The notes under the pieces: model-generated
What the model saw: the letters and a program-made list of their open reading frames with translations, nothing else
The model's database searches: none
Told to the model about the DNA's origin: nothing
Program-made: the position numbers and the translations under genes
Source: Dermatophagoides farinae
Taxonomy: Eukaryota; Arthropoda; Arachnida; Sarcoptiformes; Pyroglyphidae
DNA: 64,000 nt
Assembly (NCBI RefSeq): GCF_024713945.1
Contig: NC_134680.1
Location: forward strand, 4,674,001 to 4,738,000
Reading direction: 5' to 3'
Shown here: positions 22,001 through 58,569 of the stretch, piece after piece
How positions within the stretch are numbered: position 1 is the stretch's first letter
How the letters are laid out: every line of letters starts with the position of its first letter

Positions 22001-25000
22001 ATATAATTTTCTATATATGTAAAAAAGGGGGTTTATTTCAGCAAAAACAAATCCAAATCCATTTCCATTCGAAAATAGAGACTTTGAGTTTTGCAATCAT
22101 CATCATTCAATATAATTTTCTATATATGTAAAAAAGGGGGTTTATTTCAGCAAAAACAAATCCAAATCCATTTCCATTCGAAAATAGAAAAAAAATTCAT
22201 TCATATTTGATCAGGTCAATATGCCCGGTGATATATAAAAATATAAATTAATAAATTAATAATTTACATTCCATTCAATCAATCAATAATGATGATAGAG
22301 TATTTGTAAATGAAAATAACATATGTTATGTAATTGACTGGCTGAAATTTTGTGTTTGCGATCAAACAAAATTAGCCAAAGAATAAACATTGAACAAGAA
22401 AATTGAAATTAATTATGAATATGATGATAAACATGATTACATTTAGCAAGCCACAGCAAGGAGAAGCTAGTAAAAAAAACATAAGCGTCATAATAAATAG
22501 GAAATGAACGTATGTTTTCTTTTGACAATCAAATCAAATCAAATTAGATTTAGGAAAAAAAAATTACCAATGGTTAAATATGACTGACAGATGTTTGTGT
22601 GTGTGTGTCGACTTTGTTGGAATTTTTTGAAAAAATTCATAAAACTTTTTTCACTTTTCGCTCTCTTTTCTCTTTTTTCAAAACGGAAAATTAAAAAAAA
22701 AGTTTCATCAAATGAAATCAAATCATAAACCGGTATTTGTATTCGATGTTACAAACATACAGAATGTGATAACCAATGATTGTGAATGCAGTGGAAACAA
22801 TGGTTGATCAACCAACACGCGAATTTGTAACGTCACTGGTCCGAAGGGTTAAAATTAATTAATTAAACAAAAAAACCATCCTTACCTGTTGATGTGAAAG
22901 TACATATTGTAATTGTTTATCAAATGATGATGATGATTCTGATTCTGATGATGATTGTATTAGATGTCCATGCTGTTGATTGTGATGTGAGTGATGATTA
23001 TGATTATATGAATGATGATGATGATCATTACTTGATTGGCTATCATTTATTGTAGTTAATTCATATGGAAATTCATATCTTTGTTGTTGTTGCAACTGTT
23101 GATGATGGTGATGATGATGATGGTCATTGGATGTGATGGCTAGATAATGACCATTAGATTCATTATTATAATCTTTTAAGAAAAAAAAATAAATGAAAAA
23201 AATTAATTTGATCCTAGAACACACAAACATACATTTCAAATGATGATGTGTATGATGATGACCATCAATCACATTGACATAATCATTCATCGCTATCGAA
23301 GATGATGATGGTGTAGTGGCCATTGGTGTAGATGATGCTGCCATTAATTCATTACAAATATTATTATCACCATCATTGGTAGTCGTTTTGATTAAATGAT
23401 ATGTTGTTGTAGCGGCGGCAGCAGCAGCAGAATTATTTGCATCAACTGATATTGATGGCTGAAATTCATTTTGATTCATCATCATCATCAATTTTGTTTT
23501 GGATCGATCATTGTTGTTACTGTTGTGGTTTGTAAGATGGTGATGTTGATTGTAACCATTTTCTGGTAGCTGTTGTTGTTGTTGTTGCTGTGATTCATTA
23601 ATTTTATCATTGATTTTGTTGTTGTTGTTGTTAGATGATTGATGCTGTTGCTGCTGTTGTTGTTGATGATGATTTCCGTTTACGCCAATAGATGAAAATA
23701 ATCATTATGAATGATATAATTGCTAGAATTATGATTAAACCACCCATCAATATGGTTAATTCGACAAAATCTTCACCAACAACCATTGCTAAACGACGAT
23801 TCTGTGAACGATGGCCACCAATTGTCGATGATTGTGATGCAGCTGTATCACCATTACCACCACCAATAACACCATTATCATTCAAAATAATTAGACGACC
23901 ATTTAAACTTTGTTCATCAGCTGATGCTGCATATAAAGGATTTGTCGGTTGTTGTTGATGATGGCGATTTTTATTCCTAAAATTTTGCATCTGTTGTTGT
24001 TGTTGTTGTTGTTGATATTGTAATATGGATAAAGTATGAAATGTTTTTCGTAATGATTTTCGACTTCGACCTAAATGATTTTTTGCCCATAATAATAAAC
24101 GATAATGAGTATTCGGTTCAAGGTTATTTAGTTGAAAATAATTATTGCTGATGTTGGCAAATATTCGTCCATCATTCGGTTGTTTTGGATCGATACGATC
24201 ATCATCATCATGACCATCAACATAACCGCTAAACTCATCATCAGAAGTTAATGAATGTTTCGTGGACCATAACCGTATCGTAAATGATTGTTCATGGCCA
24301 TAATTAAAACCAGGATTCCATCGTAAAAATGCTTGTTGATGTGTTAGATTTAGAATTTGTAAATTTTTTGGACTTTCTGGATAGCCTATAAAAAGATCGA
24401 AATAAATAGATTGAAATTTTTGTGTAAACAAACAGAAAAGAATGTTTGTTGTTCATTATAAAATATTAAATAGCATACTTTTTCGAACCAATTCAAATCG
24501 TTGATGATCATTACCAAATTCATTATTAACCATACATTCATATATACCATAATCATTATTATCGAGATGACGAATAATTAATTCACTTGTATGATGATAA
24601 TTTTTAATTATCATTTCCGTTTCCAATGCTGATGATGTGGACGACGATTCAGAGGATGATGGAAAAATCACTCGATATTTATCACTATTAATCAGCATCA
24701 TTGATGTTTGTTGTTGTTGTTTTTTTGGAATTTCATCACTATCAGCATTATTATTATTATTGTTATTGTGATCATCATCATCATCATCATCATCATTAAC
24801 AGTAGTGAATCGTGTCCAATTGAAATAAACATTTGTCGGATATGCCAATGCTGAGCAGACAAATTTTACCGATTGTTGTTCACCATTATTTGCAGCTATT
24901 TTCCTTAAATTATATGGTACAAATATTCTTGGCCGATGTCGAATACGTATGGCTATTGAACGGCTATCATTCATTGTATGACATGTATAAATACCGGAAT

Positions 25001-26694
25001 CAACAAAGTTTACTTGATTTATTGCCAATTCAGAATGTATGGATAAACTATTATTATTATTATTATAATGACTATAGTTTGGATGTTGTTGTTGATGATG
25101 ATTGTTTGCTGCTGAATTTGCTATTTGCTTGGAATTCTTTTTCGATAAAACTGTTTGTGTTACATTTGAACGTGACCAATCGATAAACATATCGCTTGAA
25201 TGTAAATTTGAATTAATTAAAAAATTATAATCATCATCATCAGCATTCATATCATCGTAGAGGTAAGGTATATCCACAGAATGATGTTGTGTATGATGAT
25301 AATGATAATGATCATTAGATAAAGGCCAATAATTGATTGATTTCGATTGCTGATGTTGATGTCGAATATTATGAATTTGTAAGCGTTGTAAATGTTCACT
25401 GAAAAATTGTTTCGTCCAACGAATTATTGACGATGGATTACCATCATTTACATCACATTCAATACGAAAATTTCGATCATTATTTTCAATTAATTCGATT
25501 ATTTCAATCGCGGTACTGTTATCCATTTGGATACGGTGATTTATGGTTGATGATTGATTGGTAGTGTTGGTCATCACAGACGTTTTTCTAGGCACTACAA
25601 CTCTAATCTTATCGATAGAAGAAATGGCTACAAAAAAATAGTTGGGATTCGGATAAATTGAAAAAAAGAAAATTTTTAAATAATTTTTAACAACTTACTT
25701 CGTATGAATAACCGTATGAACATTAATGAATAACCGATAGAATTTTCTGCACGTAAAACATAAAGGCCATAATCATTTCGTGTTACATTATACATATCGA
25801 TCAATATGCTATGATTATCCACTGATAATTGCCAATGCCATTGTGATGGTATTAATTCCAGATAATCTTGAATATTTTCCCATTTTAAATTTTCTAATAA
25901 AAAATCCGATCGTTGATTAGCGATTAATAATCGATCTAATTGAAGATTATTATCAGCATCATCATGTTTCGATGTTGATATTTTTCTCATAATACGATTC
26001 ATACGTATCGAATTCGATATAGGATTTGATCGTAACAATATTTGTAGCTGAAAATTTTCTCGTTCATTCAATTCGATTGTTTCGATTGTTTTCAAAAATT
26101 TTGGCTTATCTTTTATGTTCCAAGGACATGAAATGAAGAAAAAAAGAAATGAAAATTAATTTACATTTAATCCAAAAAAAGAAATTTTATTTATGTGCTT
26201 CAAACAAAAAAAATTAAGTTACTTACAATGAACATTTAATATTCTATCTGATCGTATGGCTTTTTTATCCATATATAATTCGGTAATACCAGAATATACA
26301 CGGGATTTTTTTCCAACAGTATGATGATGATGTTTGATTTATTTGCAAAATATGGTTTTTCATTCACGCATTATTATTTATCATCATTGTTTATGGCCAT
26401 TGGGTGGTGTTGGATAATAAAAAAAAATGAACCACAACAGTGTGTGGTGATTATGAATCACAACAGTAAATACAGTGACAAAAAGTGAAGATTTTTTTTC
26501 GGTTAATAATAATCACCCGTCGTCCAACGGAGAATGAATTAAAGATGCAACAAGCCATGAGAGATAGAGTATCCATAAGATTCACAAAAAAAAGACATTA
26601 ATTTCTATTTAGGATTTAAGATTATAATATACAGGGTGTAGTGTAATGATCATCTTAAGAAAGCTAGATAAATTTGCTTCATTCATCCATTCTT

Positions 26695-26737
<43 letters not shown>

Positions 26738-29700
26738 AAAAAACCATGGTAAATTAATTCGAATGAATTTATGATGTTTTTTTTCTTCGTTTCTATTTCC
26801 ACCACTTGTGTATGTGTAGTGTTGATTTTGTGCCTCAGTTTAATTTAATTTTTTTTTTGACATTTTTTTTTATTGTTCACACAATTCAATTTTTTTAAAA
26901 TCTATTTTTGACACTTACCGTGATTTGTAATCAAAGGATTATTAGCAATACATGCCAATTGTGTTTGATCATCATTTGCATTTCACACGAAATATGTAGA
27001 TGATTTTATTCGATAATGCTATCGGTGATGATGATGAATGAAAATTTGATATACTCATGTTATTATCATAAGGTCGAAATAGATTCAAATGTTCATGTTG
27101 TTGTCGTCGACAATTCGTTCGATATAAAATGCCACCCTTTTTATCATCATTCAATTGTTGATGTTCATTGTTTTGTTTATAATTTATCAACGCTGATGGA
27201 TCAATTTCATCATAATCATTGTCGATAGCAAACATTTGCCGGTATGATATGGTTTCAATGTGAATATCATTATTATTATTATTATTATTGTGGACATCTT
27301 GTTGTTGATCATCGACATCACCATTGCCATCATCATCAGTCATGATCATTCTATTACCATCATCATGATTATTTGTTTTTAACAATGTTAACGTCGAACA
27401 TGGATTACTTGGACTTGATGTACATTCAATCTTAATCTATATAATATATTCGATACGAGAAAAAAACAAAAAAAAACATACAAGAAAACATCGACATAAG
27501 AAAAAAAATTGATTATAGGGTATGTATGATATATTCGATGTAAAAAGTAATTTTTCTTCTCTGAAATCAGAGAATCACGAAACAAACACTCGCTTACACA
27601 CACACACACACACACACACCGTCACTGATTTATATATCAACACAAACAACATCAATCAATCGATAGATCGATATGCAATCAATCGTTATTTTTATTTTCA
27701 TCTTCATCATAACATAAAATGATAAATGGATTTTTTCCACCATATAAAACAGTAATACACACACACACACACACACACACAAGAAAAACCGATGATGATT
27801 TGGAACATTGGGATCATATATTCTTTATTTATATGTGATGATTTGATTTTTGTTCCAATTATCGAAACGAATATTATATGATACAAAATGCAGCAACAAC
27901 AACAACAACAAAAAGTAAACAACAATCAACATCATCAGAATATTACATGATTGATTCATTTATTCGATAATATAAATCGAATAATAATGTAATGATATTT
28001 TTAGTTATTATTATTAACGAAACAACAGTATCTCTAGATATACATATATACCGATGAGAAAAAAATCGAATATATTTCTATCTATCTATATCTGGCTATT
28101 TATATCCGCAATGTACATTTGTTACATTTTATTGTATCGAAATAGTAATTTTTGCAAAACTTTTTTTTCTGTTTTTTGTTTTGTTTTGTTTTTACACAAA
28201 ATTAGCCTAATTGAAGAATGGTATCGTTTTTTTTTCATTTCATTGTTTTTCTTTGGAATTGATTGGAAAAACTTTTTTTGTGTTACCAAGAAATTTTTAC
28301 ACTGACCATCATCATGTTGTTTTGTTCTGAAAGGATGCGTGAAAAAAAAACTAATTAAACAACTCATTTCGTAACAACGATAACTTTTAAAAACCGGACT
28401 AACTAACTAATAAAATTTGTTGTGTCGTTTATCGTGATAATCAAAAAAAAAAAAAAAAAAATCCTCATTCAATATGGTTTCTAAACCAAAACAGAAAAAA
28501 TAAAACGGTATTCGATTCTGGGAACAAATAATAGAATTAAAAGGAATCAGATACATTGTTGATCAAAGATGGAAAGAAAAAAATCTTCATCCATATGACA
28601 ATTTTTTTTGTTGTTGTTGTTGTGTAATTCCAAATTATCGATCGAATTTGCTCATCATTCGATTCGATCATCGATGATGATTTAATCCTGATCCAAAAAA
28701 AAAAATGTCATTGTCAATAACAACCATAATGATGCTGATGATGATCATATCTATCGGTATTCATTGAGAATGGAAAAAAATTGGTTATTTGGACCATAAA
28801 GAAAAAAAATTCGAATGTTTTTTTATTCTTGAATGGATCAAGAATCACACACACTGTGTATATAATAATAATAATAACTGAATTAATTCTATAAGTAAGA
28901 TAAAAAAAAACTAAAGGCTATTCCATCTCTCTACCATTCTTTCTTCATTCTTTGCTTGTATTCTGAAACTTACTGTATCATTTTCCTTAATGAACTTTGG
29001 AAACGTGATGTTTAGCTGATCCGGTGGAACTAATCACGATGATGATGATGATGATGTTGTGTGTATCCAGTCCAGTCCAGTCCAATTTGTTTGTTGTTGT
29101 TGTTGTTGTTATTTTTTTTTAGTTTTATTTATAAATTTCAGTGATAATAATGGTTTCAGGTTTTTATTTTTCATGGCCATCCATCCACAAATTTTGTTGC
29201 CATATATTGTAAAATAAAATGAAAAAAAAATTTAAAATAAAAAAAATTAAAAAATTCAGAAAACAAAAATTACAAATTACAAATTCAAATTCAAATATAT
29301 ATTGAAAAAATAAAAAATTGCCCTTAGATGGCATGATTGGCGTTTCCGTACGTCATCTATGAATATGTTTACAAAAAAAAAAAATTTTGTTCGATGTTAT
29401 CATTGTTCGGAAATGCGTGAGTATTGCATGAATAAATGTTATAAAAACATCATCACACAACGCATGACTTCTCACTTTTTTTTCATGTTTTTTTTTCGCT
29501 AACCACATTTTCCAAAAATTCGAACTTTCATTTTTTCATTTTTGTTTCGTTGATTTTCGATTTTCTAAAACGTATTAATACAATTTCATCAATTCAAATT
29601 CATTTTCGATTAAATTCTGTTGATTTTTTTTTGTGAAATTAAAAGTATATAATACTACAAAATGAGTTCACGTGGACGATCACGTGCACGTTCCGGTTTT

Positions 29701-32700
29701 CGTGGTATGGCCAGTTCTTCTGGTCAACCATCACAACGAGAACAATTAGAATCTAAAGAAGAAGAAACTCGTTCACGAATGTCTGAATTATCAATTCAAG
29801 GTATTTTGAGCGTTTTTCCTTATAATTTCTCCAATTTTTTTTAAATTGATGATTATCCCTAGAACAAAGTGATAGAACCATACAAGAACTTCAATCGACA
29901 AGAATCTCTTCAGTTGTTTCTGGTGAAGAAAAAGATGATTATCGCTCCAGTAGTCGACGCGATGATGAACGTGAACGAAGTTATGGTGAACGTGGTACCG
30001 GACGTGGAAGTGGATATGGCGAACGAGAAAGCTATGGTGAACGGGGTACCGGACGCGGAGCTGGATACGGCGACCGTGGTGGCGAACGCGAAAGCTATGG
30101 TGAACGAGGTACCGGACGCGGAGCTGGATACGGCGACCGTGGTGGCGAACGCGAAAGCTATGGTGAACGAGGTACCGGACGCGGAGCTGGATACGGCGAC
30201 CGTGGTGGCGAACGCGAAAGCTATGGTGAACGAGGTACCGGACGCGGAGCTGGATACGGCGACCGTGGTGGCGAACGCGAAAGCTATGGTGAACGAGGTA
30301 CCGGACGCGGAGCTGGATACGGCGACCGTGGTGGCGAACGCGAAAGCTATGGTGAACGGGGTACCGGACGCGGAGCTGGATACGGCGACCGTGGTGGCGA
30401 ACGCGAAAGCTATGGTGAACGGGGTACCGGACGCGGAGCTGGATACGGCGACCGTGGTGGCGAACGCGAAAGCTATGGTGAACGAGGTACCGGACGCGGA
30501 AGTGGATATGGCAGCCGTGGTGGCGAACGCGAAAGAAGTGGATATAGTGACCGTGGAAGAATTGGTTCCGGTACTCGTGGTATAAGCAGTGGTGCTGGTG
30601 GTGATCGTATGGCACCGCGAAACTTTACATCATATCCGGAATCCGAAGCGTATGACATTGTATTGCCCAACGAAATTGAACATGGCGTCAAAGGACGTAA
30701 AATTGAACTATTGGCTAATTACATGCGAATCAGTATAAAGCCGACCATGGTCTATCATTATAACATTGATTTCAATTTCAAAGATGATGAAGAACGTGTC
30801 GCAATCAATGCTAATAATGAACGGAAGCAAAAATATTTTGCTAATAATGCTTTAGAATTGGTTACTCGATTTATTGAAATAAACGATGAAAAAATGAGAC
30901 AATTAAATGAATTTGTCTATGATATTGGAAAGAATATCTACACTACTAAAGAAATAGATTTAAACGAATTGACCAAGAATTTCGAAGCTAATATTGGTGG
31001 TCAAAGAAAACGATTTGTTGCCAAAATTGTCAATGTACAAAAAATTGATTTAACACAAATTGTGGACTTTTATGAAGGCCGTACATCGGAAGCACCACAA
31101 GTGATCATACATTTTCTTGAATTATTAATACAAAATGTATCCTTGTCAAAATTTCATCCTCATCGACGTAATTTATTCGATATTGAATCCGGTGTTATCC
31201 GTAGCCCAAAAAATTTTGTTAAATTTGTACAAGGTTTTAGTACGGCCGTACATTTAACCGAAATGGGACCATCGTTGAATCTACATCTAAAAACATCATG
31301 TATGATTTCATTGGAAGCTGATACATTATTACAATTAGTGGCCATGATTTCCGAAGGTCGTGATCCGCAACATTTAAATCCAAATGAAATTGAAAATATT
31401 AGCAAAATTATTCGTGGATTAGCAGTGAATACTGATTATACTGGCCGTAAACAAAAATATATAGTGAAAGCGTTTGCAGCACGACGACCACATGAAGTAA
31501 CATTTATGATGAAAAAGAATGGCACTGATGAAGAAACACCCATTTCTGTTCATGATTATTTTCTCACGAAATATAGAATATCAGTGAAAGATTATCCGGT
31601 CGTTCAAATGTGTGGTAAACGTGATACAGTCATTCCATTGGAACTAATTTATTTGGTAGAGAAACAATTTTTGAACAATTCAAAAATCGATTCCATCATA
31701 CAGAATGAATTATTACGTACGGCCACTCATAAACCATTGATTTATTTCAATCATTTATCACGATTTACACAAGAAATTGTCAAAAGTAATCCGGAACGAA
31801 TGGCTCAATTTGGTACTGATCTTTCACCAAAACCTGTTCGCTTTTGTGGCCGTGTTTTGGATGAACCACGTGTACGTGGTGGCAACCGTAATGAACGTTT
31901 TGCATCGGCTTCTGTAGCTAGATGGGCATTCTTTAGCTTTGACGAGAAATTCGGTGAACGCGATGTGGATAGTATTGTATTAGAATTGAAACAAACAGGT
32001 AATCGTTTTGGTATGAATTTATCGAATTGCATTGAAAAACAAGTGGTGCCAATCGATAATCGAAGTCTGGATGTGGTAAAAAATGTTTTTGCAAACATTT
32101 TGAAAAAATTGCCCAATCTTAACTTGTTGTTTGTAGCATTGCCTCACAGTAAGTGTGTCTGATAATTTGATTTGATTGATTTATATTTTTTCTATTTTCA
32201 ATCTAGTTCCATTCTTGTACAATGCTGTCAAACATTTTGGTGATCAAAAATTCGGTATTGTCACACAATGTTTGTCCGTAATGAAGGCTAAACGACGTAA
32301 TCGTGGTTATATTGAGAATCTTTTGCTTAAAGTTAATGGAAAACTTAATGGTCAAAATAGCTTTATTGAACGCCAAGATCTTCAATCGTTATCAATTGAC
32401 CATACTAAAACTATGGCCATTGGTGTTGATGTTAATCATCCGAGTTACACGGAAAAAGTCCAAAGTTCAATTGCTTGTGCAATTGGAAGCTATGACCATG
32501 AATTCACCCGTTATTCGGCCAGTGTACGTGTTCAAAAACGTGAAAAAGAAGAAATGATCTATGTACTTGAAGAAATGGTTGATGAATTGTTGGATGAATA
32601 TGAAAAGCGTAACAAATATTTACCGGAGAATTTTGTCATTTTTCGTGATGGTGTTTCCGATGGACAATTTAAATATGCTGAAAATGAAATCAATCAAATT

Positions 32701-35700
32701 CGTACAGCTATACGACGACGAACAAAAACTGGCAAATTGGTGTATATTGTCACACAGAAAGGTCATCAAACTCGATTCGTATTGCAAAATCCAAGCGGTT
32801 CGGCTGATCGTCCGGTATATAATGTACCACCAGGTACTGTTGTCGATCATACAATTACCGATCCAACCAAATGTATGTTCTTCATGAATTCACATTTCTC
32901 ATCATTGGTAAGTGAAAATTCAAATATCGATTTTATATATATTTCACGTTTTTTAATACAACAACAACCATAGGGAACATCACGTCCAATGAAATACGTC
33001 GTGTTACATAATGATTATGAACGACGAAAAATGAACATGGATGATTTGGAGAAACTTTGTTTCTATCTATGTCATAATTGTACTCGTTTTCGTGGACCAA
33101 TTGCAATGCCCGTTCCGGTTCGTTATGCTGATCTTTGTGCTTATCGTTCAAAATTGCATTTGGAAGCACAACATGCTAGTAAAAATATACCGGCCGAAAG
33201 TCAAGAAGAATTTGAACGTCATGTCATTTCACAATTGAATAAATTGGTGAAATTGAATGATAAGATCAAAAATTCACTTTTCTATTGTTAAACAAACATA
33301 TATGTATGATTCACATCTAACAAAAACAAAAAAAATCTACAATACACGATTATCATCTTTATAATTATCACATTCATATATTCATATATTCATATATTGT
33401 CTTATTATCATATAACAAATGTTTGGAAAAAATATTTCAGAATATATATTTCGGTTCAATTAATTTAATAAACTCTAATAAATGTTTGCAAAACGAGAAT
33501 CGATCCAACCATCAAACTGACCCATATCAAAAAAAAAAAAAAAATCTGGGTGTTTTTCTTCATACACCCACCACCGGAACCAAAAAAAAAAAAGAATTTT
33601 CATACAGATGTTTATGATGGAATAATGATTTTGATAAATTGATGAGAATTGAATCGAATTCGGTTTTTTCGTTTCGTTTCCAAAGAAAATTCAATTAATC
33701 AATTTTTTTTTTTGGTTTAGCTTTCAAAAAAGAAATGACAAAGTTGTTTTTTCTTTCTTGATTGTCTGTCGACTGAGATTGAATTTTTTTACGTTCGACT
33801 TTGTAAGTTGAATTTTTTTCGATGTTTTTCTCTTTGATTTTTGATTGTTTGAAAAATGTGATTCCGGTTTTCTTTTTTTTTTTGGCTCAAACCAAACCAA
33901 CAATCATTGTCGACAACAACAACAAATCGATGATCGATATTTCGAGAAAATAAAGAAAAAAAACAGAAATCAAAATGGGCTATCAATCTAAGTGGAAAAA
34001 AGAAAGAAAAAGAAAAAAAAAATTCAAGGAAAATTTCTTTATGATCGAAACTTTTTTCTTTTTCCCATCTCCATCATCATCATCATCATCATCATCCGTG
34101 TAATGACATTCGCACACACACATACACACAAACACGAAACGCCCCCCCATTTGGTTATATAACATAATCAAATCATCATCATCATCGGTGGAACAAATAT
34201 AAAAGTCAGTCTTTCAAAAATACACACACACACACACACACACAAATATTGAAGAAAGTTATTAGTATAGTGAAGTATGTACAGTCAAATCACAACCAAT
34301 CATACAACCATCATCATCATCATCATCGAAATTTACCCGAGAAAAAAAAATCAAACTTGTTTAGTGAAAACCAAACAAGTCAATTTATCTTTCCGGTAAT
34401 TCATCTTGTTGTTGTTGCGGCCGAATCAAAAAAAAAAAAAAAACGAATCAATCGAATTGTTGGTCAGACTTGGATTTTTCTATTTTCTATTTTTTTTCAA
34501 GCATCATCATCATCATCATCACAGACGACGACAAAAACTATAATGTGTTGTCAGATGGAGAAATGAATTTTTTTTTGTTTTGTTTACAAACCAAAACATC
34601 AACAATGAAGAGAAATAGAAAAAAAAAATTCTTCTCAATCATTCTACAAATAAAATTAGAAACCATAGATTTCAATTCGTTAGTTTTGAAAATTTTCTTG
34701 TTCTTTTTTTCGGGCCCATTTAATTTCGGGTCCTCGTCATCGTCGTCATCATCATCATCATCGGGACATATAAATGAGCAAATAGCGTGTGTGTGTGTGT
34801 GTTTCAAATCAAGTGATCCATGAAGCGAAAATGAAATGAAATGAAATGAAACAAGCACAAAAAAACAGGGAAAAATCAAATTTCTTAAATGATGAAAACA
34901 AAAGACAAATTTCTTCATAAATGATGAGTGATGAGTGTCCACATGGGCAACATTCATTTCAATTGCAAACAAAAAAAAACAAACCCGAAACCGAAACCAA
35001 ATCAACTGAACACAATTAATTTTTTGGTTGTTGACCTAAACTGTCCAAAACATACAGTGTGTCGAAAACTATGAAAAGTCAATTAAATTTTGGCCATCAA
35101 AAATTTTTTTTCGGTTTCGTTTTTTTTTTTGAATGAATGAATGATGATGATGATGATGATGAAGAGAAAGGAAGAAAAAAAAATTGTTTCATATTCTAGT
35201 GTTTCGATTCTTTTTTTTTCTTTGATCAAAATGCCTGAAGCTATTAAAGTCGATTGAATCAGAATTGTGAGCAAAAAAAAAAAGACAATAACCTCGGAAT
35301 CAATAAGATTTGTGAACAAATTGCTCATCGGAAATTTGTAAAAAAAAAATTCTATTTTTGATCGATAAATTTCAATGGAATTCGCGAATCTATCTATTAT
35401 TACGAATTTATTTTGAATCAAAAAAAAAACAAAACAAAATAACGACTCAATTGAAACAATTATGACAGTGGAGAATTTCTTTGCACTGATAATAAAAATT
35501 CGATCATCTGACAAGATTTGTATCTACCACTTTTTATTTTTTTTTTTTTTGCCAGTCTTTATGTGTAATCCTCCGCTATGCCAATTAATGGGAATGTGTT
35601 CCAAATCATGTCATTTTTCTGTTATTGCTATCATTATAAAATTGGACATATAAAAGTGGGAAAATCAAGTTGAAATAGTCATAGCGATTAAAGGAAATTT

Positions 35701-38234
35701 TCTCAGGAAAAAAAACATTCTGGAAATTTTTCTATTAGTGTTACACAATGGTGAAAATGTTCCAATTTTTTTTCAATTGTGAATTCTTCATTTTAAATTC
35801 AATTTTGAAAATTTTTTCTTTACTGACTGTTAGAAAAAAAAATTATTGCCAAAAGATACGAAAAACGGAAATCGAACAAAATGGCTGTTTTTTGGCAACA
35901 GAATCGGAAATCACTTGATTTTTAATTGCACGAAAATCTTAAAAAAAACGAACGAATGAACGAACGAAAATAGAATGCCGGAAAAAGCTCGTCTTTGCTT
36001 TAAATTAAACTGAACGACTTTAACGAAAAATTCATTTTATGTATGTCAAACGTAAAATGGAATGGAAAAAAAAATTTTCAATCATCTAATTGCATTCAAT
36101 ATCAAGGAATTTGGTAAAGAATTTATGTTTCATTTCATTTCATTTTGTTCATTTGTTCTTGGAACCAAAATGATAATAAAATTGACATTCATATTTATGA
36201 ATGAGTCAAAAAAAATAGATAAAAACAACACAACAGTAAAAAACAAAAATTTCTGTAAACATAAATTGACAAACATTTTCATTTTTATTATTGAAAGAGA
36301 AAGAAAATCAATTTCAACAGAAAAAGAAAGAAAGAAAGGTCAAAAGAAATCGTCCAAGAAATCTGATCGAACATGAATGAGTGAGTGAGTGAGTATGAAC
36401 CCTCAAAGGTTGAAATGGTATCAAAACATTCTAAATGGAAATAGAAACTAATTGACTTTGAAAATGCAATTAAAATTTTCTTTTGTTTTCACTTTTGCCA
36501 TCATTATCATTATCATCATCGCCATCATCATCATCATTTTTTTCGTTTATTTGTTGTTATTGTTGTTGTTGTTGTTGTTGTAAACAATCAAGATTACGTT
36601 TAGCAATATTTATAGCTGTTCTATTGCTGTTTCTGCTGATTCTGTTGGTACAATGTTACGATTGACTGGCTACGAATTTAATGAATGGAAAACCATCATC
36701 ATCAACAAGGCAAAAAAAAATTTAAAACATTCAAGAGAACAAAAAAAAAATTCAATGAAAATGAAAATCACTTTGTTGAAACCCTTTTTTTTCACCCATA
36801 TTCTATATTTCATTGCCCAATCTTTCATGAACTACTACTAACTGATATACTAACTATAGTTAATTCCAGTTAATAGAAGCCATTTATGGAACAAACAGCA
36901 ACAGCAGCAACAGAAATGAAACCGAAATCAAATGGAGCAAATTGTTATTACTATTACTATTATTATATATATCGTATAAATAAAATCTCCCGAAACAAAT
37001 GAACAAAGAAAAAAAAATTAGATAGATTTGGCCCAACGATAACAAGTAAAGGAGAAAGCGATAATACAGCACACACACACACACACACACACAAACATCA
37101 CACATAGGGTAGAATGTGAATGTTTTTGTGTATTAAATAGATAGAATGGAAATAGATAGAATAGATAGATAGATAGATATAGAAAATGAACATGAAACAA
37201 AAGAAAAAAAAATTCGTTTAAACATTAACTTACATATTACATGAAGCGTAAAGAAAACTTCATATGGCTTTTCCAACGATGGATGTACGACGTGACAACG
37301 AAATATTTGACCATGATCATTGGAAGTTGGACGTAATACAAGTTCACTATTAATACCAGTACCGGTTGTTGTTGCTAAAGCGGATATCTTTTTTTTCAGA
37401 ATCAAATTGAATGGTGGTGAATGGCGAAACGAGAGAGAGAGAAAAAAAAATGTAATGGACAAACATTGTGAGAAAGAAAAAGAATTGGAAATCGAATAAA
37501 ATAAATGATGAACAACGAAAATTTAGTGCAAACAAGAATTCACAATTCTCTTTGTTAGCTTTTTTTTGGGTTAACAATAACAATGGTAATAGAAAACAGA
37601 AACAAAAGAATATTCTGGCCATTGATCTTTTTTTTCTTTGTTTTTTTTTGGTGATAACTAAAAACTAACTAATAGAAGCTATTTGTTGTTAGTTGTTGTA
37701 GTTTGTTTCCATTGATGGTTATTTGTCAATTTGACCGATAAATAATTGCTATAATTCAATATAAAAAACATTAACAACAGCAACAACATTGTCTGATGTC
37801 ATTATTGCTTGTAGTTGTTTGAAATTGAATTCAGAAATGAATTTTTTTCCCTATCAATTCGACGTAAATAAATGTTTTATGGATGTTGTTCCTGATTCAT
37901 AGGAATGTGGGTTAATTCATACCTCACGATCATTTTGATTCAACCAGATTAAATTGGCACGTGGATTACCACCATAACAAACACATTTACATTTAAATAT
38001 TTCACCAACAAAAACGGTTACTTGGCCATTTTTAACGCCAAGTAAAATGGGCATTTCTGGTGGATCTTTGTGTGTGAGAAAAAAAAGAGAAAATGAAAAA
38101 TAAGATTTTTTCACATTACGCAAAACTTACAAATCACATTGATTTGATGAGTTGTAGATAATGTTTCGAATTTTCCATTCGTTGAATAGGCTACATATTG
38201 ATTCGATTGAGTTCAATTTGAATTTAAAACGACA

Positions 38235-38265
<31 letters not shown>

Positions 38266-41200
38266 CATCGATGTGTTGTCGTCAATCGATCAATCGATAG
38301 TGGAACGATGAATAAGAGAAGTTAGATATTGAGAATAAAAAAAAATGGAAAAAAGTTGAGCCCATAAGAGAGAGAAAGTGTCATTTAAATTTTAATCGAT
38401 CATCATCATCATCATCATCATCGATACTTACCAATACAAGCTATATTACGTATATTTGGTTCTTTATTATTGATCACAATTGTTATATTTGATCGTAATG
38501 TCCAGCTTTGATGATCATGTTTGATCATGTGAACATAATTATTATTATTATTATTATTACCAACATTGTTGATTATTGATCGTTGTTGTTGATTATGGCC
38601 ATTATTATTAACATGACCATCATGATGATCATGTTCATCATTATTATTATTATTATAATAATCATCTGAATCAACTTCTTTACCATCGATAAGCCAACGT
38701 ATTTTTGATTCATTCGGTTGATGTGATACAGGATGTGCATTACATTCTAATGTTATTGGTGTTCCTATATTCGAATATTCCAACATTCATGATGGCCATT
38801 CATTTTGATTTCCAGCATCCCGTACAAAAAAAAATTGATCCAATCAACCGTAAACATGTTATCATCAGCCATTGAATGTCCATGAATAAATTCGAGTGCA
38901 AAAAATTTTTTTTTATTATCGATGGAAGGCAAGTAAGCAAGCAAAAAGAAAAAAAAATAACAGTCAATAAACACGTAACGTAAAAAAAATGACAAACCTT
39001 GTTGTTGCCGTTGTTGTTGTTGTTGTTGTTGCGAACCATCATCTGATAATAGCACTTCGGTTGGACCATCAATATGAATTTGTGTGGGAAACACTGGATA
39101 GATTTTTTTTCGTTTAAATTTCAATTAATTTAAAAAAAAAATCATTACTTACAAAATACATTCAATGTAATCGATTCCTGTAATGGTATGGCTGTCAAAC
39201 TATTCATCACTTGACATGTATATTGTGCTTGATTATCATTATGATCAACAATAATTGATAATGTATTGAACACTTCATGATGGCCATTTTGTTGTTGTTG
39301 TGACATAATTATTGTGTATGTACGATCAATTTCAATACCATTACGATACCAAATGATTGTCGGTGGTGGATAACCATTGATCGAAGTACATTTAAGATTT
39401 AATTTTTCCTGATAATTAACAATATCACCATTTTTATAGCCATCTATCACAGGTGATGATGGTTGTCTATAAATATTGATCAATGCCATTGCACGTAATG
39501 GTTTCGATAAACCATTATGTTCAGCTTGACAACGATATTCTTCATCAATTTTTGGATATAAAATTAAACTTGATTCAATCGAATAAATTGTATGACGATT
39601 TGATAGCAATGTTTTCGATACAGTCGTTTTTGCCGCTTCTAATTTTCGTGTCATCCAAAAATTTAATTAGAAAGAGAGAGAAATACAGAAAAAAATGAAC
39701 CAATAATCAATTATTTGGTAAAAAAAAGGTCAACAACAAAAAAAAATGGCTACAAGGCATTCAAGAATGAATGAAATAGAAATAGAAAAGAGTTTTAATG
39801 ATCTTGAAACTTTTTTTTTGTCGGTGGCCACGAATAAAACTTAGTGAAAGTGGGATGAAGAATCAATCAACAATTAAGATGTGTAGGGGTGGGGGGCGAA
39901 TAGTTTTCAACATTCGAATGAACAACTTACCAGGCAATAATTCAATATTTTTTCTATACCATTTTAATCTTGGTGGTGGTTTAGCATATGGTACCGTACA
40001 TACGATAATAATCTTTTCACCTTCATATGCATCAACCATAAATATTGATGATGAATTATGATTTGATGATAATGTAAAAGGGCTATTCAATTCAGATTGA
40101 TGATAATGATGATTGGACGAAATATTCGATGATGACGATAATAATGGACGAAATGCAACTCCAACACCACCACCAGCACCACCATTTGGATTGTCAAATG
40201 AACGTGTAGAATTTATATAGATCACTTTTGGTGGCACTAAATTTAAAAATTCAAGAAGAACAAAAAAAAATATAAAAATAGACAAACACGTCATTTATGA
40301 ACAGAATCAAAAATTCGAACGAGTATTAAAAAAAAGGCTTTGTTCTTGTTGCTGTTGTTTTGTTTTAATTCATTTACTATCATCATGATGTTCAACTTTT
40401 GGCTCATTTGATTTCATTCATTCATTATTATTTCATTTTGTTTTTATTTATTTATTATTTGTTTCACTTCATTTTTCTTGTTCATTTCATTTTCTTCATT
40501 AAAGTGCACATATAACCAAGAAAAAAAAGGATGAAGTATGTTACCAAAAAAAACGCATAAATTCTGGATTTATTTCTTGATGTTCAAGTGCGTGTGTATG
40601 TTCCACACAATGAAAAATCACAAGTAACATATGTTTTTGTTGCGGATCAAAAGAATTTTATTCTTGTTTCTGTTTGTTTTTCTCAACATCATCACCATCC
40701 TCATGACCCAGAATAAAACTTTATGATCAAAATCAACTGCAACAACAAAAACAGCAACAACAATAACAACAACAACAGTTGTCGATATTGTAAAATGGTT
40801 TGATTCGAATTTCGTAACTCTTTTCTCATGGCGTTTTCGTAATGTTTTTTCTTCCCAATATATTCATCATATCTTTGTGTTTTTTTTGTGGATCTCAAAA
40901 ATCTCACCATGAAAAACAGGAAACAAAACGAGAAAAAATCATTCATTCATTTAGAACTCTATTTCATCATCATCATCATCACCATCATCAATGTAATTGT
41001 CAGTGCAGAATGAAGAATTTAATTTATATTTATACATTTTTGTTTTGTTATCTTGGAAACAATTTCGCTACATAGAGAGCCATCACCATCATCATCATCA
41101 AATGAATTCAGTATTCATCCTGAAGAATTTTTTTTCCAGTCTCATTTCTTAATTCTTTTTGCTGTGATTCATTTTGGTACATTTAGAATTTTTGGAATTG

Positions 41201-44200
41201 TTTTTTTTTTGTATGTGAATGGCACGCGTTTCTTTCACGATGGTGATGACAACAACAAATGTTCGTTTTTTTTTATCCCAGATTCTGGATTGTGATGATG
41301 ATGATTATGACGTTTTTTTTCTGGGTTCTTGTTTTTTTTCTCTGGTATCTTGCGGATGACTTGATATGAAGCAAGCATTTTTTTGTTTTGTTTTGGCTGG
41401 TTGAACTATGTAAGATGACAATCGAATGAAACACGAAGAAAAAGAAAGAATGTTTCTTCTTCGTTTCAGAAGAACAATTCTTTTCTTTTGGCTAAACGAA
41501 TGAATGAATAAATGATAAATGGCCATAGAAATTGTTTCCGATTTGCTTTTTTGTTTTGTTTTGTTTTGCAGATTCTGTTTTCTAGCCGAGAATTTCTTGA
41601 TTATCGTCTATCTTTGGTTGTTTTTGTGTGTGTGTATGTTTGTATGTGTAGTATGGAAACGATTTCGATCCGGTTGACATTCGGTCATCCGGATCAAGAT
41701 ATTATTTTTTTTTTGTTTCTTTCAAGTTTAAAATTCAGTGGTTATTGTGGCGATGATTGTGGACAATTCATAAATATGGTAACACAATAATAATGGTAAT
41801 ATATTGACAATCGAATTCGATTCTAATATTTACAGCCAACTTTTCCATCTTGAAAAAACAACAACAAAAGAGATGATGATAAAAAAGGAAAACTCAATTA
41901 TCAAAATACATTTATTTCCTACTTTTGGATCATCATAGAAAAATAGACAAACAGAACAGATAAACAAACAGAATAAAAAAAATGGAATCTTTATTCCAGT
42001 CACCAGTCCATTTATATTCGGTCCAAAGGATCCATTGGCCTCCACTAACTAAACTATCATTGAGAACAGGCCAACTGAACTACAACAACGATGATGATGG
42101 TGACAGCGATATGTTGACACCGAACAAACAAAATAAAAACCTCGACAACGATTGAATCTCAAAAGATCTAAGAAATAGCAGCAAAAAAAAAAAAAAAAAT
42201 TCACGAAAAATGAACAAAGATAATCAACGAAAAAAAAATGAGAATTTTTATCAACAACAACAACAACAACAACTGCAGCGAAAAAAAAATCTCTTCAAAA
42301 CATCAATTGGACCAGAAAAAAAATGAAAAGAAAATTTTTATTGATTTCTAAAGAACTGGCCACAAACCTAAAAATCATCATCATCAAAATCATCAAAATT
42401 AAAATTGAAATCGATTGATTGAATCACGTTACATTGTTATTATGAAGATGATGTTGTGTTTCTGTAAAGTGTGTGTATGTGTGTGTGTATATTGGTAGTG
42501 ATGTCATTTGTGGATTTTTATCATCATCATCATCATTGTCATCATATTCTACTTTGAGAATGTTTGTGTAAATATCTTCAATTTTTTTTTTTCACTCTAT
42601 ACACACACAAAAAAAAATATTTCGACACTTGAATGATGAAAACGGAAATGGGAAAAACTGAGTGTGTGTGTGTAGATTTCCTGTGAATGTGTGTGTGTGT
42701 GTTTTTGTTGTTATTGAAAATAATATTTGTACTACAATTAAATGATTTGTCTGTTCCAACATGATCCAAAACGACGAGTGAAAGAAAAAAAAACAAACAA
42801 ATCGATGATGAGTGAATAAAGAGCGAAATAAAAAAAAAATCTCGAATCACAACCCGAGAATAAAAACAAACAAAACAAAAAAAATTTTATTTTTTAAAAT
42901 TTTAGTCACGCCCAACCATTATTGACATAACAACAACGTCAACAACAACAACAACAAAAAATTCTTACGAAAAGAATAAACATTCCATACTTTTACAGTT
43001 GTTGTGGATGGATCATTTAAATTTTTTTTTCTTATTTGAACAAACAAACAAAAAAATGAACAACTACTACTTACTGATAAGATGTAGATGAGCTGCAGCA
43101 CGAATTGGCTGTTTATTACTATTTCCATTTGAATTCTGTTGTTGTTGTTGATGATGATGATGATGATTATCATTATTATTATTATTATTATGATGATGAT
43201 GATGGTTATTATTATCGGTCATTGTTGATGATGAGGCACTTGTCGTTTGACATTCAAATTCAGCTTCATCATCCAATTGTACATTCTGTATATGTAGATT
43301 ATATGTTCGTAATGTTTGATTTACATACATTATATAACGATCATGTCCCGGTATGATTGCTTCATAACCTAAAAATATGTAAGTGAATAAAATGAAATGA
43401 AATGAAAAAAAAATTGTTATCATCATTATATTATTACATATGAAAGTCATGAATATTTGTTTGAATAAAATAAACTAAAAAAAAAATTTCGTTTTTTTGT
43501 TGTTGTTGGAACAAAACACGCCTTTTTTAAAAAAATTCCATTTTGCTATTCATTGTTCAATGTGTGCAAGTTTATTATTATTATTATGTAACATTTTTAC
43601 AGAGAATGTGGGATATGTACCTTTGATGAATTGTGGAAAATTTTTTTTTTCATAATGATTGTGATGTGAATTTTTTGGGAAAAAAATTTTTGTTGTTGTT
43701 GTTATTTTCTGGAATATGATTATCACACACCCACACCCACCCACATTTTTTCCATTCTTTTCTATTCTATTCGATCAAATCGATAACATTATCATCATTT
43801 GAAATGTTTATTTTTTTGTTGTTGTTGTTGTTATTTCATTCCATTTCATTATGTTTTCATTATGAATATACCAGAAATTTCATTTGAAATTATAAAATAA
43901 TGATGACGATGAAAAGAATTGGATACATTCTTTTATCTTTTATCATGTGTTCACCACCATTATCATATAAATAAATACAATTCTTTATTGTTCATTTTTT
44001 GTGGGTGTAGGCGGGATGGACGAATGAGTACCAGTGTAGGTGTGGTTTGGGAATGTTTTTTGTTGTTGTTGTTGTTGTTTAAAATTTGAAAAACTAGAAC
44101 AACATTATTATCAAAATGAAATGAAATTTTTTTTTTCATTTTGCAAAATTTTAAATTTTCCATTTTCCATTTTTTTTTTTGCTCATCATCATTAATATTC

Positions 44201-47200: not shown

Positions 47201-48251
47201 CAATGATGATGATTGCTGCCTATTCTTTTTTTTTTGTTTCACAATGAAAATTAATACTGTTTGTTTGTTTGTTTGCTTGTTTTGTTCTATTCTGTTGTAT
47301 GGGTGGTATGTGTGAGGCGTCAAAAATGTTGTTGTTCACCAAAAAAAAAAAAAAAAAAAAAAAAAACATGAAACAACAAATTTTTTTTATGGAATAACCA
47401 GAGCAAGAAAAAAAAAGTTTCATTTTACATGGATAACAATGATAAGGCAAGGCAAGTTTGTTGTGTGTGTTCATGTGTGTTCATGTGTGGGTATGTAACA
47501 CATCATTTTTTTTTCTCTCATCCTAATCATCATCATCATCATAATAATCAACCATAAATTTGATGTGAAAAGAGAAAAAACCGCAACCGAAACAAAAAAA
47601 AATTAGATAAACGACGATCAAAATGAAGAAACCTAAAAAAAAACACAAAACTAAAAAAAAAATTCATGTTGATTGTGATGATGATCATAATGGAAAATGA
47701 TGATGATGATGATGATGATGTGTTTGCAAGTCTCATTGTAATCATGATGATCATCATTAAACCACAATGGTGGATGGCATATCCAAATCAATTAGAGCTA
47801 AATGAAAAAAATTGCATTTGGATAATGATGAAATTTTTTTTCGCTTTTTTGTTAGAAAGAAAAAAAATCTTATTTTTCACTTACCCAAAAGAAAACCATC
47901 TTTAGACCATTGTACTGGACCATAATTATCGATATCTGGATTAATTTGGCACTTTAATTCAGTATTATCACCTTCAATCACATAAACATCAGTTGGTTTA
48001 ATACGAAAATAATGATCTATTATTGATTCTGGTTGTTTTGAATGTTTTTGTTGTTGTTGCTGCTGTTGTTGTTGTTTCTGCTGTTGTTGTTGTTGTTTAA
48101 CATTATTTGAATATTTTTTCATTGAATTATATGATGATATTAAACTCGATGATGATGATGATGTTAATGCTGCAGCTGATGGTTGTGATTTTAGTTTTGA
48201 TATTAAATGAATGGATGATGATGATGGCGTTGATGTTGCATTAATTATTGA

Positions 48252-48288
<37 letters not shown>

Positions 48289-48365
48289 ATGATAATAATG
48301 ATGAATAATAATGTGTAGAATAATTGTCTATAAAGCCATCTATAGCCAATTAGATTGAATATCAT
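19054..48365 (-). CDS. sns: Nephrin / sticks-and-stones-like adhesion receptor (nine Ig, one FN3, TM)
   Basis: Seventeen exons, right to left: 48397-47885, 43368-43075, 40236-39931, 39638-39153, 39093-38998, 38764-38432, 38190-38131, 38065-37923, 37387-37234, 29029-28974, 27436-26919, 26259-26227, 26109-25699, 25627-24479, 24385-23233, 23172-22886, 19695-19054; every junction is GT-AG and phase-consistent. Starting at the Met before YTLLFIIIII (48365), a signal-peptide-like stretch, the product is about 2200 residues if two one-base excesses are discounted (see the two frame-break entries). Ig1 carries FRIKPTDVYVIEGDNTELKC and VQWSKDGFLLG, the hallmark of the nephrin/Sns/Kirre group; IPGHDRY and DDEAEFEC complete it. 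Ig2 to Ig9 follow, then FN3 (SPKNLQILNLTHQQAFLRW; LNNLEPNTHYRLLLWA), a membrane helix (VELTILMGGLIIILAIISFI) and a Gln/His/Ser/Thr-rich tail with scattered Tyr. The Ig-plus-FN3 layout fits Sns/Hibris/nephrin rather than five-Ig Kirre. Known role of relatives: heterophilic adhesion in myoblast fusion and nephrocyte slit diaphragms. Confidence 0.9.
19696..22885 (-). other. Last intron of the nephrin-like gene, 3.2 kb
   Basis: GTAAGG donor (beside 22886) to TTTATATAG acceptor (beside 19695). Contains a 109-bp tandem duplication and simple repeats. No coding sequence recognised on either strand. Confidence 0.75.
21968..22188. repeat. Perfect tandem duplication, two 109-bp copies
   Basis: The segment beginning AGAGACTTTGAGTTTTGCAA is repeated head to tail with a period of 109 bp and no mismatch that I can find. 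The unit is not a simple repeat; it includes a GGGGG run and a short CAATCATCATCATTCAA stretch. It lies in the last intron of the nephrin-like gene. Confidence 0.95.
23563..23683 (-). other. Frame break just after the transmembrane segment of the nephrin-like protein
   Basis: Past the membrane helix the frame reads YWRKRK and then stops within about 13 residues, while the frame one base later is open for 280 codons down to a good splice donor at 22886. Either one extra base lies just after the RKRK codons, or a 121-nt intron (GTAAAC at 23683 to CCAG at 23563, phase-compatible) is removed or retained. The first keeps the basic stop-transfer residues; the second would delete them. Exon 24385-23233 is one base too long for its flanking phases. 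Confidence 0.6.
26697..26736. repeat. Poly-T tract, 40 nt
   Basis: Uninterrupted T run within an intron of the nephrin-like gene (poly-A on its sense strand). No element body is visible next to it. Confidence 0.95.
26972..26985 (-). other. One-base frame break in the Ig6 exon of the nephrin-like gene
   Basis: The Ig6 exon (27436-26919) is open in one frame down to a stop at 26974-26972, and in the next frame from just after a stop at 26985-26983 to a perfect donor. The second frame encodes the diagnostic F-strand (NDDQTQLACIANNPLITNH). There is no AG between the two stops or after them, so no intron can explain the switch. Exon length (518) is one more than the flanking phases require. The change is therefore an indel within 14 bases, beside AAA runs. 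Confidence 0.85.
28974..29029 (-). other. 56-nt exon of the nephrin-like gene (start of Ig6)
   Basis: Found from splice signals and phase rather than an open frame. The acceptor GTGATTAG precedes 29029 and the donor GTAAGTTTC follows 28974. Entering in phase 1 from the Ig5 exon and leaving in phase 0, it encodes PPDQLNITFPKFIKENDT, which joins to IKIECTSSPSNP at the next exon to form the A-B strands of an Ig domain. It is the exon that proves the Argonaute gene is intronic, since it lies on the far side of that gene. Confidence 0.88.
29440..29446 (+). promoter_or_regulatory. Candidate TATA box of the Argonaute gene
   Basis: TATAAAA, 216 bp before the Argonaute ATG, followed about 30 bp on by a TCTCACTT stretch that resembles an initiator. 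It sits within the host intron about 410 bp from the 56-nt exon of the nephrin-like gene. In such AT-rich sequence a chance match is possible. Confidence 0.3.
29662..33291 (+). CDS. AGO: Argonaute protein with RG/GR-rich N-terminal repeats and a D-E-D-D PIWI active site
   Basis: Four exons: 29662-29800, 29863-32148, 32207-32907, 32974-33291; short GT-AG introns (62, 58, 66 bp), phases agree, 1147 residues. Residues 1-46 are Arg/Ser-rich (MSSRGRSRARSGFRG); residues about 88-280 are a 21-residue RG/GR-rich tandem repeat. The N domain starts near 296 (IELLANYMRISIK), PAZ spans about 460-645 ending YPVVQMCGKRDTVIPLELI, then MID and PIWI (from about 874). The MID 5'-phosphate residues are all kept: Y813, K817, Q829, K850, K854. 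In PIWI, GVDVNHP gives D883, E924 is the glutamate finger, FRDGVSDGQF gives D956, and D1095 (VRYADLCAY) occupies the place of human AGO2 H807; the spacings (41, 32, 139) match AGO2 (40, 32, 138). The C-terminus LFYC mirrors the family's buried aromatic end. Role: small-RNA-guided silencing. It is Ago-like rather than Piwi-like but divergent. Confidence 0.95.
29990..30560 (+). repeat. 63-bp coding minisatellite in the Argonaute N-terminus
   Basis: Seven near-identical 63-bp units (about 30041-30499) encode GGERESYGERGTGRGAGYGD plus R, flanked by degenerate copies on each side. The copies differ only at a synonymous CGA/CGG position that I can see. The array is much richer in G+C than the surrounding DNA. 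Because 63 is a multiple of three and the unit has no stop, the array is open in other frames on both strands, producing two spurious long reading frames. Confidence 0.97.
33467..33482 (+). terminator. Candidate polyadenylation signals of the Argonaute gene
   Basis: Two AATAAA hexamers (33467-33472 and 33477-33482), about 180 bp after the Argonaute stop and the first canonical ones downstream. They lie well inside the host intron, so the nested gene can be a self-contained transcription unit. Confidence 0.5.
38131..38190 (-). other. 60-nt exon of the nephrin-like gene (end of Ig4)
   Basis: Acceptor ATATGTAG before 38190, donor GTAAGTTTTG after 38131, phase 1 to phase 1. It encodes YSTNGKFETLSTTHQINVI, the F-G strand segment that completes Ig4 between NIACI in the upstream exon and YPPEMPILLG in the next. 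It is too short to stand out as an open frame. Confidence 0.88.
40237..43074 (-). other. Intron of the nephrin-like gene, 2.8 kb
   Basis: Separates the Ig1 and Ig2 exons (donor GTAAGTAG beside 43075, acceptor AAATTTAG beside 40236). Simple repeats only; no nested coding region recognised. Confidence 0.7.
43369..47884 (-). other. Intron splitting Ig1 of the nephrin-like gene, 4.5 kb
   Basis: Donor GTAAGT beside 47885 after DGFLLG, acceptor TATTTTTAG beside 43368 before YEAIIPGHDRY. Contains a 26-nt poly-A (47341-47366), GA runs near 45487 and 45656, and (GTT)n near 46763-46815. No coding sequence recognised. Confidence 0.7.
47341..47366. repeat. Poly-A tract, 26 nt
   Basis: Uninterrupted A run inside an intron of the nephrin-like gene, with no recognisable element attached. 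Confidence 0.95.
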
Positions 48366-57422: not shown

Positions 57423-58042
57423 AGACAAAATTAGAATGAATTTCGATTTTGATTGAGAAAATCTGATTGAAAATGAATTAAGTGAATTGAATTGAATAAA
57501 TGGTAATAAAAGTGTTCATTATTCAATATAGGAAAATGTGAATTGAAAATATTTTGATCAACAATCAGCAAAAAAAAGAAAAAGAAAAAACTATCGATAG
57601 TATCGATTTGAGTATAATCATTATTTCCTGCTAAAAGTGTTAAAAGTATTTCATCATGTGATGATCAGGATAATTAAGAAAATAGATAGATTCAAATGTG
57701 TGAATTCAGCATAATAAGTTTTTTTTTTCATTGAAATTTTTAATATTTTAAAATTTTCATTCCAAGATAGCTTACATAGCAAATGAGAAATGAAGAAAGA
57801 AAAATCTTTTTTTTTGCCATAATGAATTGAATGAAAAAAAGAGAAAATTCACTTTGATTGTGTGACAATTGAAATGGATGCAAAAAAAGAGAGAGAAAAT
57901 TTCATTATTCAAAATCATCATCATCATCATTGCAGCAATAAAATTCACTTCACACACACACACACACACACACAGATGGTTAAATGGGTTGCCATTTTAT
58001 TTTAACCAAACGACAAAACAAATTGAACCCAAGTGTGAAATT

Positions 58043-58198
<156 letters not shown>

Positions 58199-58569
58199 GC
58201 AAAAAATGTAAGTTCATTTAAATATAATTTGGTGAATTACCCAGGCCCAGCTTGCGTACATTCAAAATAAAATCTCGTTTTCATCTCATTATATAAAATC
58301 GACACGATGATGGTGAAATTTGAAAAATTTCATTTTCATTTTTATACCGGAAAAAAAATTTATCCATCCATTTATTTGAAAAACAAAACAAAACAAAACA
58401 AAAAAAATTGTCCACATAAATCGGTAAACCGTAAAATTTTTTTCCATTTGTTTGTTCAGTTTCCAGACCAAATGAATATTACAAGTCAACAAACTTTTAA
58501 TAATAAAAATCATTTGATTGTCGGACGAATAAAAAAAAAAAAGTTTCTCTTGACTATCAGCACACTTAC

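Follow-up and report, generated by a model that had tools for sequence, protein, structure and literature searches.

Evidence for an Argonaute gene nested on the opposite strand in an intron of a nephrin-like gene of Dermatophagoides farinae

A window of 64,000 nucleotides (nt) of the genome of Dermatophagoides farinae (contig NC_134680.1, positions 4,674,001 to 4,738,000; C4:4674001-4738000 of the 62.4 Mb in 22 contigs which were analysed) appears to contain an Argonaute gene within an intron of a single nephrin-like gene, a nested arrangement that is well supported by the sequence. With a probability of about 0.85 we regard the inner gene as an intron-bearing duplicate of the DEDD type of Argonautes, which would be transcribed independently from the strand opposite to a large nephrin/SYG-2-like intron, while that intron would be spliced normally. 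The nesting is real and its explanation is ordinary; the arrangement is of a common kind. Positions given below without a contig are those of the window.

Nesting in the Host Intron

The host, on the minus strand, is an adhesion gene of the nephrin/SYG-2 type with an array of immunoglobulin (Ig) domains, an FN3 domain and a membrane span, and its best solved match was SYG-2. Its right half holds a signal-peptide-like start and Ig1 to Ig5, its left half Ig6, additional Ig domains, FN3 and the membrane span; the start and the span were judged by eye. From 40236-39931 down to 29029-28974, eight exons in a row could be placed with AG/GT borders and with phases that agree, as could the start of a ninth at 27436. 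Spliced from 40236 to 27436 onward they yield an open frame of 695 amino acids (aa), the borders having been picked by eye so that the frame stays open. The whole Argonaute coding sequence (29662-33291) lies inside a single intron of this series (29030-37233), on the opposite strand (Table 1). A sequence-only reading of the window had claimed a complete Argonaute antisense in a nephrin-like intron, and this is borne out by the splice phases, by the domains which each half carries and by the alignments through the join. The borders and phases which it had given for the exons next to the intron were also confirmed, namely an Ig5 exon (37387-37234) leaving in phase 1 and a 56-nt exon (29029-28974) entering in phase 1 and leaving in phase 0; both exons have AG/GT borders. 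The peptide across the spliced host junction consists of ...TLHVI, FPPDQLNITFPKFIKENDT and IKIECTSSPSNP in succession; in a longer form it is ...EVFFTLHVI-FPPDQLNITFPKFIKENDT-IKIECTSSPSNPCSTLTLL.

In 37233-27437 there were 181 candidate exons that were open, bounded by AG..GT and compatible in phase, and the 56-nt exon ranked first among them (score 84). An extended version of this exon came second (66), and the next candidate independent of it scored 47. In 100 dinucleotide shuffles the best candidate of each reached 38 to 64 (mean 48.4). All exon scores were computed against the relative that had first suggested the match, and the shuffles were scored likewise.

This relative (C4:6944998-6945531) is one open frame which aligned to host residues 383-561 (31% identity, E 2.0e-19; 3e-18 with a set database size), and its alignment crosses the host joins at 525/526 and 544/545. 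The same host join is crossed by the SYG-2 chain 4ofy_D, with an E value of 3.9e-13 for the whole sequence and 8e-07 for the spanning stretch. As a side observation, the relative (L031) is a second nephrin-type gene of this genome, in which a single uninterrupted exon carries an Ig pair like the split pair of the window host.

Three observations weigh against a single, intact host gene. The frame of the relative matched Ig2-Ig4 of the host as well (8e-17), and the SYG-2 chain aligned, more weakly, at other host Ig pairs too; since several Ig pairs were hit, the alignments point to adjoining Ig pairs in relatives, not to a one-to-one match of Ig5-Ig6. Thirdly, the frame of the Ig6 exon is interrupted near 26985 (26917-27020, minus strand). 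The apparent end of Ig6 (NANDDQTQLACIANNPLITNHG, judged by eye) is in another frame, with a stop codon immediately before it, and no AG acceptor able to start an exon was found inside the NANDDQTQLACIANNPLITNHG segment. Of the earlier claim that the 56-nt exon joins an Ig6 exon at 27436, the join and its phase 0 stood, whereas the Ig6 frame does not run through. The interruption may be an error of sequencing or assembly, or a real lesion, and this host copy may therefore not be intact or functional; it is without bearing on the intron which holds the Argonaute.

The distance of 8.2 kb between the halves, together with the interrupted Ig6 frame, would suit an intergenic Argonaute, the exons to its right and left belonging to two separate Ig-domain genes. 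We consider this unlikely, since the phases match and the homology-supported 56-nt exon requires a phase-1 exon upstream, since both the relative and SYG-2 align through the join, and since the start-like sequence is found on the right and the membrane span on the left.

Table 1. Features of the host gene and of the nested Argonaute gene (window positions)
Feature	Position	Strand	Basis or remark
Host: signal-peptide-like start (Met codon 48365) and first half of Ig1	47885..48365	-	by eye; start unproven
Host: second half of Ig1	43075..43368	-	phase 1 at both ends, by inspection
Host: first part of Ig2	39931..40236	-	Pfam Ig below cut-off
Host: end of Ig2, and Ig3	39153..39638	-	best solved match SYG-2
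Host: start of Ig4	38998..39093	-	spliced alignment
Host: Ig4	38432..38764	-	without Pfam Ig match alone
Host: end of Ig4	38131..38190	-	spliced alignment
Host: first half of Ig5	37923..38065	-	phase 1 in, 0 out
Host: second half of Ig5, last exon before the Argonaute-bearing intron	37234..37387	-	phase 0 in, 1 out
Host: intron of 8,204 nt, holding the Argonaute gene antisense	29030..37233	-	splice phases
Host: 56-nt exon at the Ig5/Ig6 boundary (FPPDQLNITFPKFIKENDT)	28974..29029	-	phase 1 in, 0 out
Host: Ig6 exon up to the frame interruption	26984..27436	-	phase 0 in; without Pfam Ig match alone
Host: open frame, additional Ig-like domain	25676..26155	-	Pfam, below cut-off
Host: open frame, two more Ig domains	24456..25694	-	Pfam
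Host: open frame, FN3 and membrane span (IIFIYWRKRK from 23702)	23631..24452	-	Pfam; span by eye
Argonaute: coding span (exons 29662-29800, 29863-32148, 32207-32907, 32974-33291)	29662..33291	+	1,147 aa, GT-AG introns
Argonaute: tandem repeat of a 63-bp unit (8.2 copies, 98% matches) that encodes the RG-rich N-terminal tail	30017..30535	+	repeat analysis
Argonaute: two AATAAA poly-A signals (33467, 33477) 3' of the stop codon, well placed	33467..33482	+	motif

Domains of the Host Gene

Pfam matches to Ig above the cut-off were obtained for the host frames holding 39638-39153, 37387-37234 and 25694-24456, and matches below it for 40294-39863, 38126-37917 and 26155-25676. No Pfam Ig match was obtained for the frames of Ig4 (38786-38418) and Ig6 (27436-26972), each taken alone; the exons of Ig4 and Ig6 were assigned by alignment of the spliced host protein. 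FN3 was found in the frame 24452-23631, with 26.4 bits against a cut-off of 25. By inspection, the start exon (48365) and the second exon of Ig1 (43368-43075) join in phase 1.

The domain order of nephrin and of Sticks-and-stones is an Ig array, FN3 and a membrane span. The host resembles nephrin, SYG-2 and Sticks-and-stones in these elements, with SYG-2 as the best solved match, and is unlike all three in carrying long low-complexity inserts.

The Nested Argonaute Gene and Its Paralogues

A complete Argonaute at 29662-33291 had been claimed from the sequence alone, and the open frame found there (1,147 aa, with ArgoN, PAZ and Piwi) agrees with it. ArgoN (E 5.2e-14) and PAZ (E 9.5e-14) were matched by Pfam in the large exon, and the downstream exons matched the Piwi family (C4:4706218-4706901, E 1.9e-47); N, PAZ and PIWI domains are thus all present. 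The earlier claim that the gene has its own TATA-like and poly-A signals held for its two AATAAA motifs (33467, 33477). Of the TATA-like boxes, the one at 29646 starts only 16 nt 5' of the ATG, too close to be the TATA box of the Argonaute; a second one is present at 29440. The 63-bp repeat is lacking in the nearest paralogue, at the locus L019, which has an S/T-rich tail in its place, and the copy number of the repeat is likely to be variable. Inverted repeats in the intron amounted to 182 pairs, and the 25 listed of these 182 were 71-86% complementary and mostly of low complexity. No Rfam family reached its gathering score in the window.

Paralogues were sought by tblastn in ten loci of 10 kb (L016-L025), nine of which matched at E 1e-4 or better; L025 gave no match. 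The motif YADLCAY, with D at the fourth catalytic position, was found in the window gene and in five paralogues (L018-L022). L016 and L017 have H at this position and L023 has neither D nor H; this check covered L016 to L023. The two other catalytic aspartates are retained in the window gene, whose glutamate position could not be located. Over 851 codons its identity to L019 was 63%, with a synonymous divergence (dS) of 0.75, a nonsynonymous divergence (dN) of 0.25 and a dN/dS of 0.33, values which indicate purifying selection, on average, between the two genes. All three introns are common to L019, at the same positions and in the same phases. The alignments of L018, L020 and L021 are broken near the places of introns 2 and 3, and that of L022 near intron 3 only; for these four loci the evidence consists of breaks only.

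In an unrooted tree of nine PIWI pieces (L024 was too short to be included, and L025 was absent for want of a match), the window gene grouped with L019 (0.948) and L016 with L017 (1.000), and L023, which is without the motif, was placed on a long branch inside the DEDD genes. By its motif the window gene is assigned to a group of six DEDD genes and is neither Ago1 nor Ago2.

Divergent DEDD Argonautes of psoroptidian mites are known, and motif and repertoire suggest that the window gene belongs with them. Ago3-8 were described as divergent DEDD Argonautes of D. farinae (PMC5805368), six DDD Argonaute genes, Ago2b-2g, were reported from D. pteronyssinus (PMC7659050) and five such Argonautes, Ago8-12, from P. 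ovis (PMC6211577). The window gene is like these groups in having D and not H at the fourth position, and in occurring in several copies beside H-type Argonautes. It differs from them in its nesting, of which the available passages on the published genes make no mention; the likeness refers to the published descriptions. The repertoire found here is no simple fit to the published P. ovis set (PMC6211577). As a separate observation, the region C2:6491833-6500391 (L023, L024) holds clustered, very divergent PIWI-domain fragments, at least one of them without the usual catalytic motif, and this cluster may resemble an atypical Argonaute group described in P. ovis.

Origin and Possible Role of the Arrangement

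We propose that an intron-bearing DEDD Argonaute duplicate would have reached the host intron by duplication at the DNA level and would have stayed there as an independently transcribed gene of the opposite strand, the host intron being removed by usual splicing. The poly-A signals of the Argonaute would be its own, and so, probably, would its promoter, within 0.6 kb 5' of the ATG. On this proposal both genes would be expressed, their pairing would presumably be neutral, and the route would have been an insertion into an intron which already existed.

Such an arrangement has many counterparts. Nested genes make up about 6% of the genes of Drosophila, 2.1% of those of C. elegans and 0.5% of those of humans; they are frequently opposite in direction to their hosts, and nesting is currently considered neutral (PMC3786989). 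A preference for the opposite strand was also stated elsewhere, where the expression divergence of Drosophila nested pairs, unseen in mammals, was read as avoidance of interference (PMC8467205). An opposite-strand nested protein-coding gene of Drosophila is 2mit, in an intron of tim2 (PMC3786989). As in 2mit/tim2, a complete gene is found here inside one intron of an unrelated host, on the other strand; the inner gene differs from 2mit in encoding an Argonaute and in having three introns instead of one. Going by its name, the vasa intronic gene (Vig-1) is nested in an intron of vasa. It was named as a component of the RNA-induced silencing complex (PMC7659050). The window gene is like Vig-1 in being a silencing-pathway gene in an intron, and unlike it in being an Argonaute. 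No account of this arrangement was found in a literature search on nested genes, mites, Argonaute and antisense RNA interference, as far as the retrieved parts of the articles go.

With the host pre-mRNA running antisense across the entire Argonaute gene, the geometry would also agree with a regulatory unit: host pre-mRNA and Argonaute mRNA would form double-stranded RNA (dsRNA), and Dicers and RNA-dependent RNA polymerases (RdRPs) would produce small interfering RNAs (siRNAs) from it, in a loop limiting the Argonaute and perhaps close paralogues. The sequence-only reading had already suggested that dsRNA against a component of the RNA interference machinery could form. Most nested pairs have the same geometry, however, and intronic RNA is usually short-lived and nuclear; both points count against such a unit. 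The Argonaute coding sequence has 21-mers in common with the 10-kb loci L019 (40), L021 (20), L018 (8), L022 (5) and L020 (2), and none with L016 or L017, of the Ago1/Ago2 type (0 and 0; the count covered L016-L022). Since the overlap is confined to DEDD paralogues, siRNAs of this kind would not reach beyond that group; common 21-mers are, on the other hand, expected from ordinary paralogy. D. farinae does have Dicers and RdRPs (PMC5805368). Against a regulatory role stand a survey in which 109 human and 752 fly nested pairs were without significant expression correlations (cited in PMC3786989), and reports of positive correlations at first and of expression divergence in Drosophila later (cited in PMC8467205). 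A regulatory unit is therefore improbable in our view, and a built-in feedback, by which dsRNA and siRNAs from host transcription would dampen the nested Argonaute together with its close paralogues and spare Ago1/Ago2, even more so. That the Argonaute is a processed retrocopy which landed in the intron is ruled out for practical purposes, because all three of its introns are found in L019 at the same positions and phases.

If the layout is neutral, which is most likely, the importance of the nested DEDD duplicate lies mainly in annotation: a supported gene model is available for two nested genes which gene-finding programs may split or fuse. Beyond this, one DEDD Argonaute lies wholly antisense to the pre-mRNA of another gene, a candidate case of cis-antisense control in animals with RdRPs. 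DEDD Argonautes were described in mites without Piwi that direct siRNAs at transposons (PMC5805368); if the feedback were true, siRNA-based transposon control in the mite would be tied to the expression of an adhesion gene.

Surroundings of the Paralogues

The flanks of the paralogues were examined within 10-kb stretches, in which 35 flanking frames reached 95 aa or more; 10 of these were scanned, and eight of the 10 had a Pfam match, one of these below the cut-off. L019 has a PNO1-like and a Maf-like gene as its neighbours, one to either side, and L020 has an ATR-like kinase and a DNase II; both loci lie between ordinary genes, which differ from one locus to the other. For L018, L021 and L022 a neighbour could be named on one side only, that of L022 from the match below the cut-off.

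Duplication of a larger block together with L019 was rejected, as blastn and tblastx of 28900-37400 gave the Argonaute homology and short matches (20 bp, 11 codons). A block duplication with the region of the host relative (L052, L053) was likewise rejected, blastn matches being only 24 to 62 bp long. L019 (C4:6.618 Mb) and the host relative (C4:6.945 Mb) are separated by about 0.33 Mb on the contig that also carries the nested pair; this proximity may be mere chance or could stem from an old block duplication.

Minor Observations

An open frame with a long Ser-Leu repeat at 57866-58270 (plus strand) is probably an artefact of simple sequence. Another gene of this genome had Der p 2 and Der f 2 as its best solved matches, which, with the Argonaute repertoire and the Peptidase_C1 genes named below, makes a psoroptidian mite likely as the source. 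The only match of an ML-domain exon (L012) was an NPC2-type protein. The genome also has a region of Peptidase_C1 genes, which we take to be similar to the group-1 allergens.

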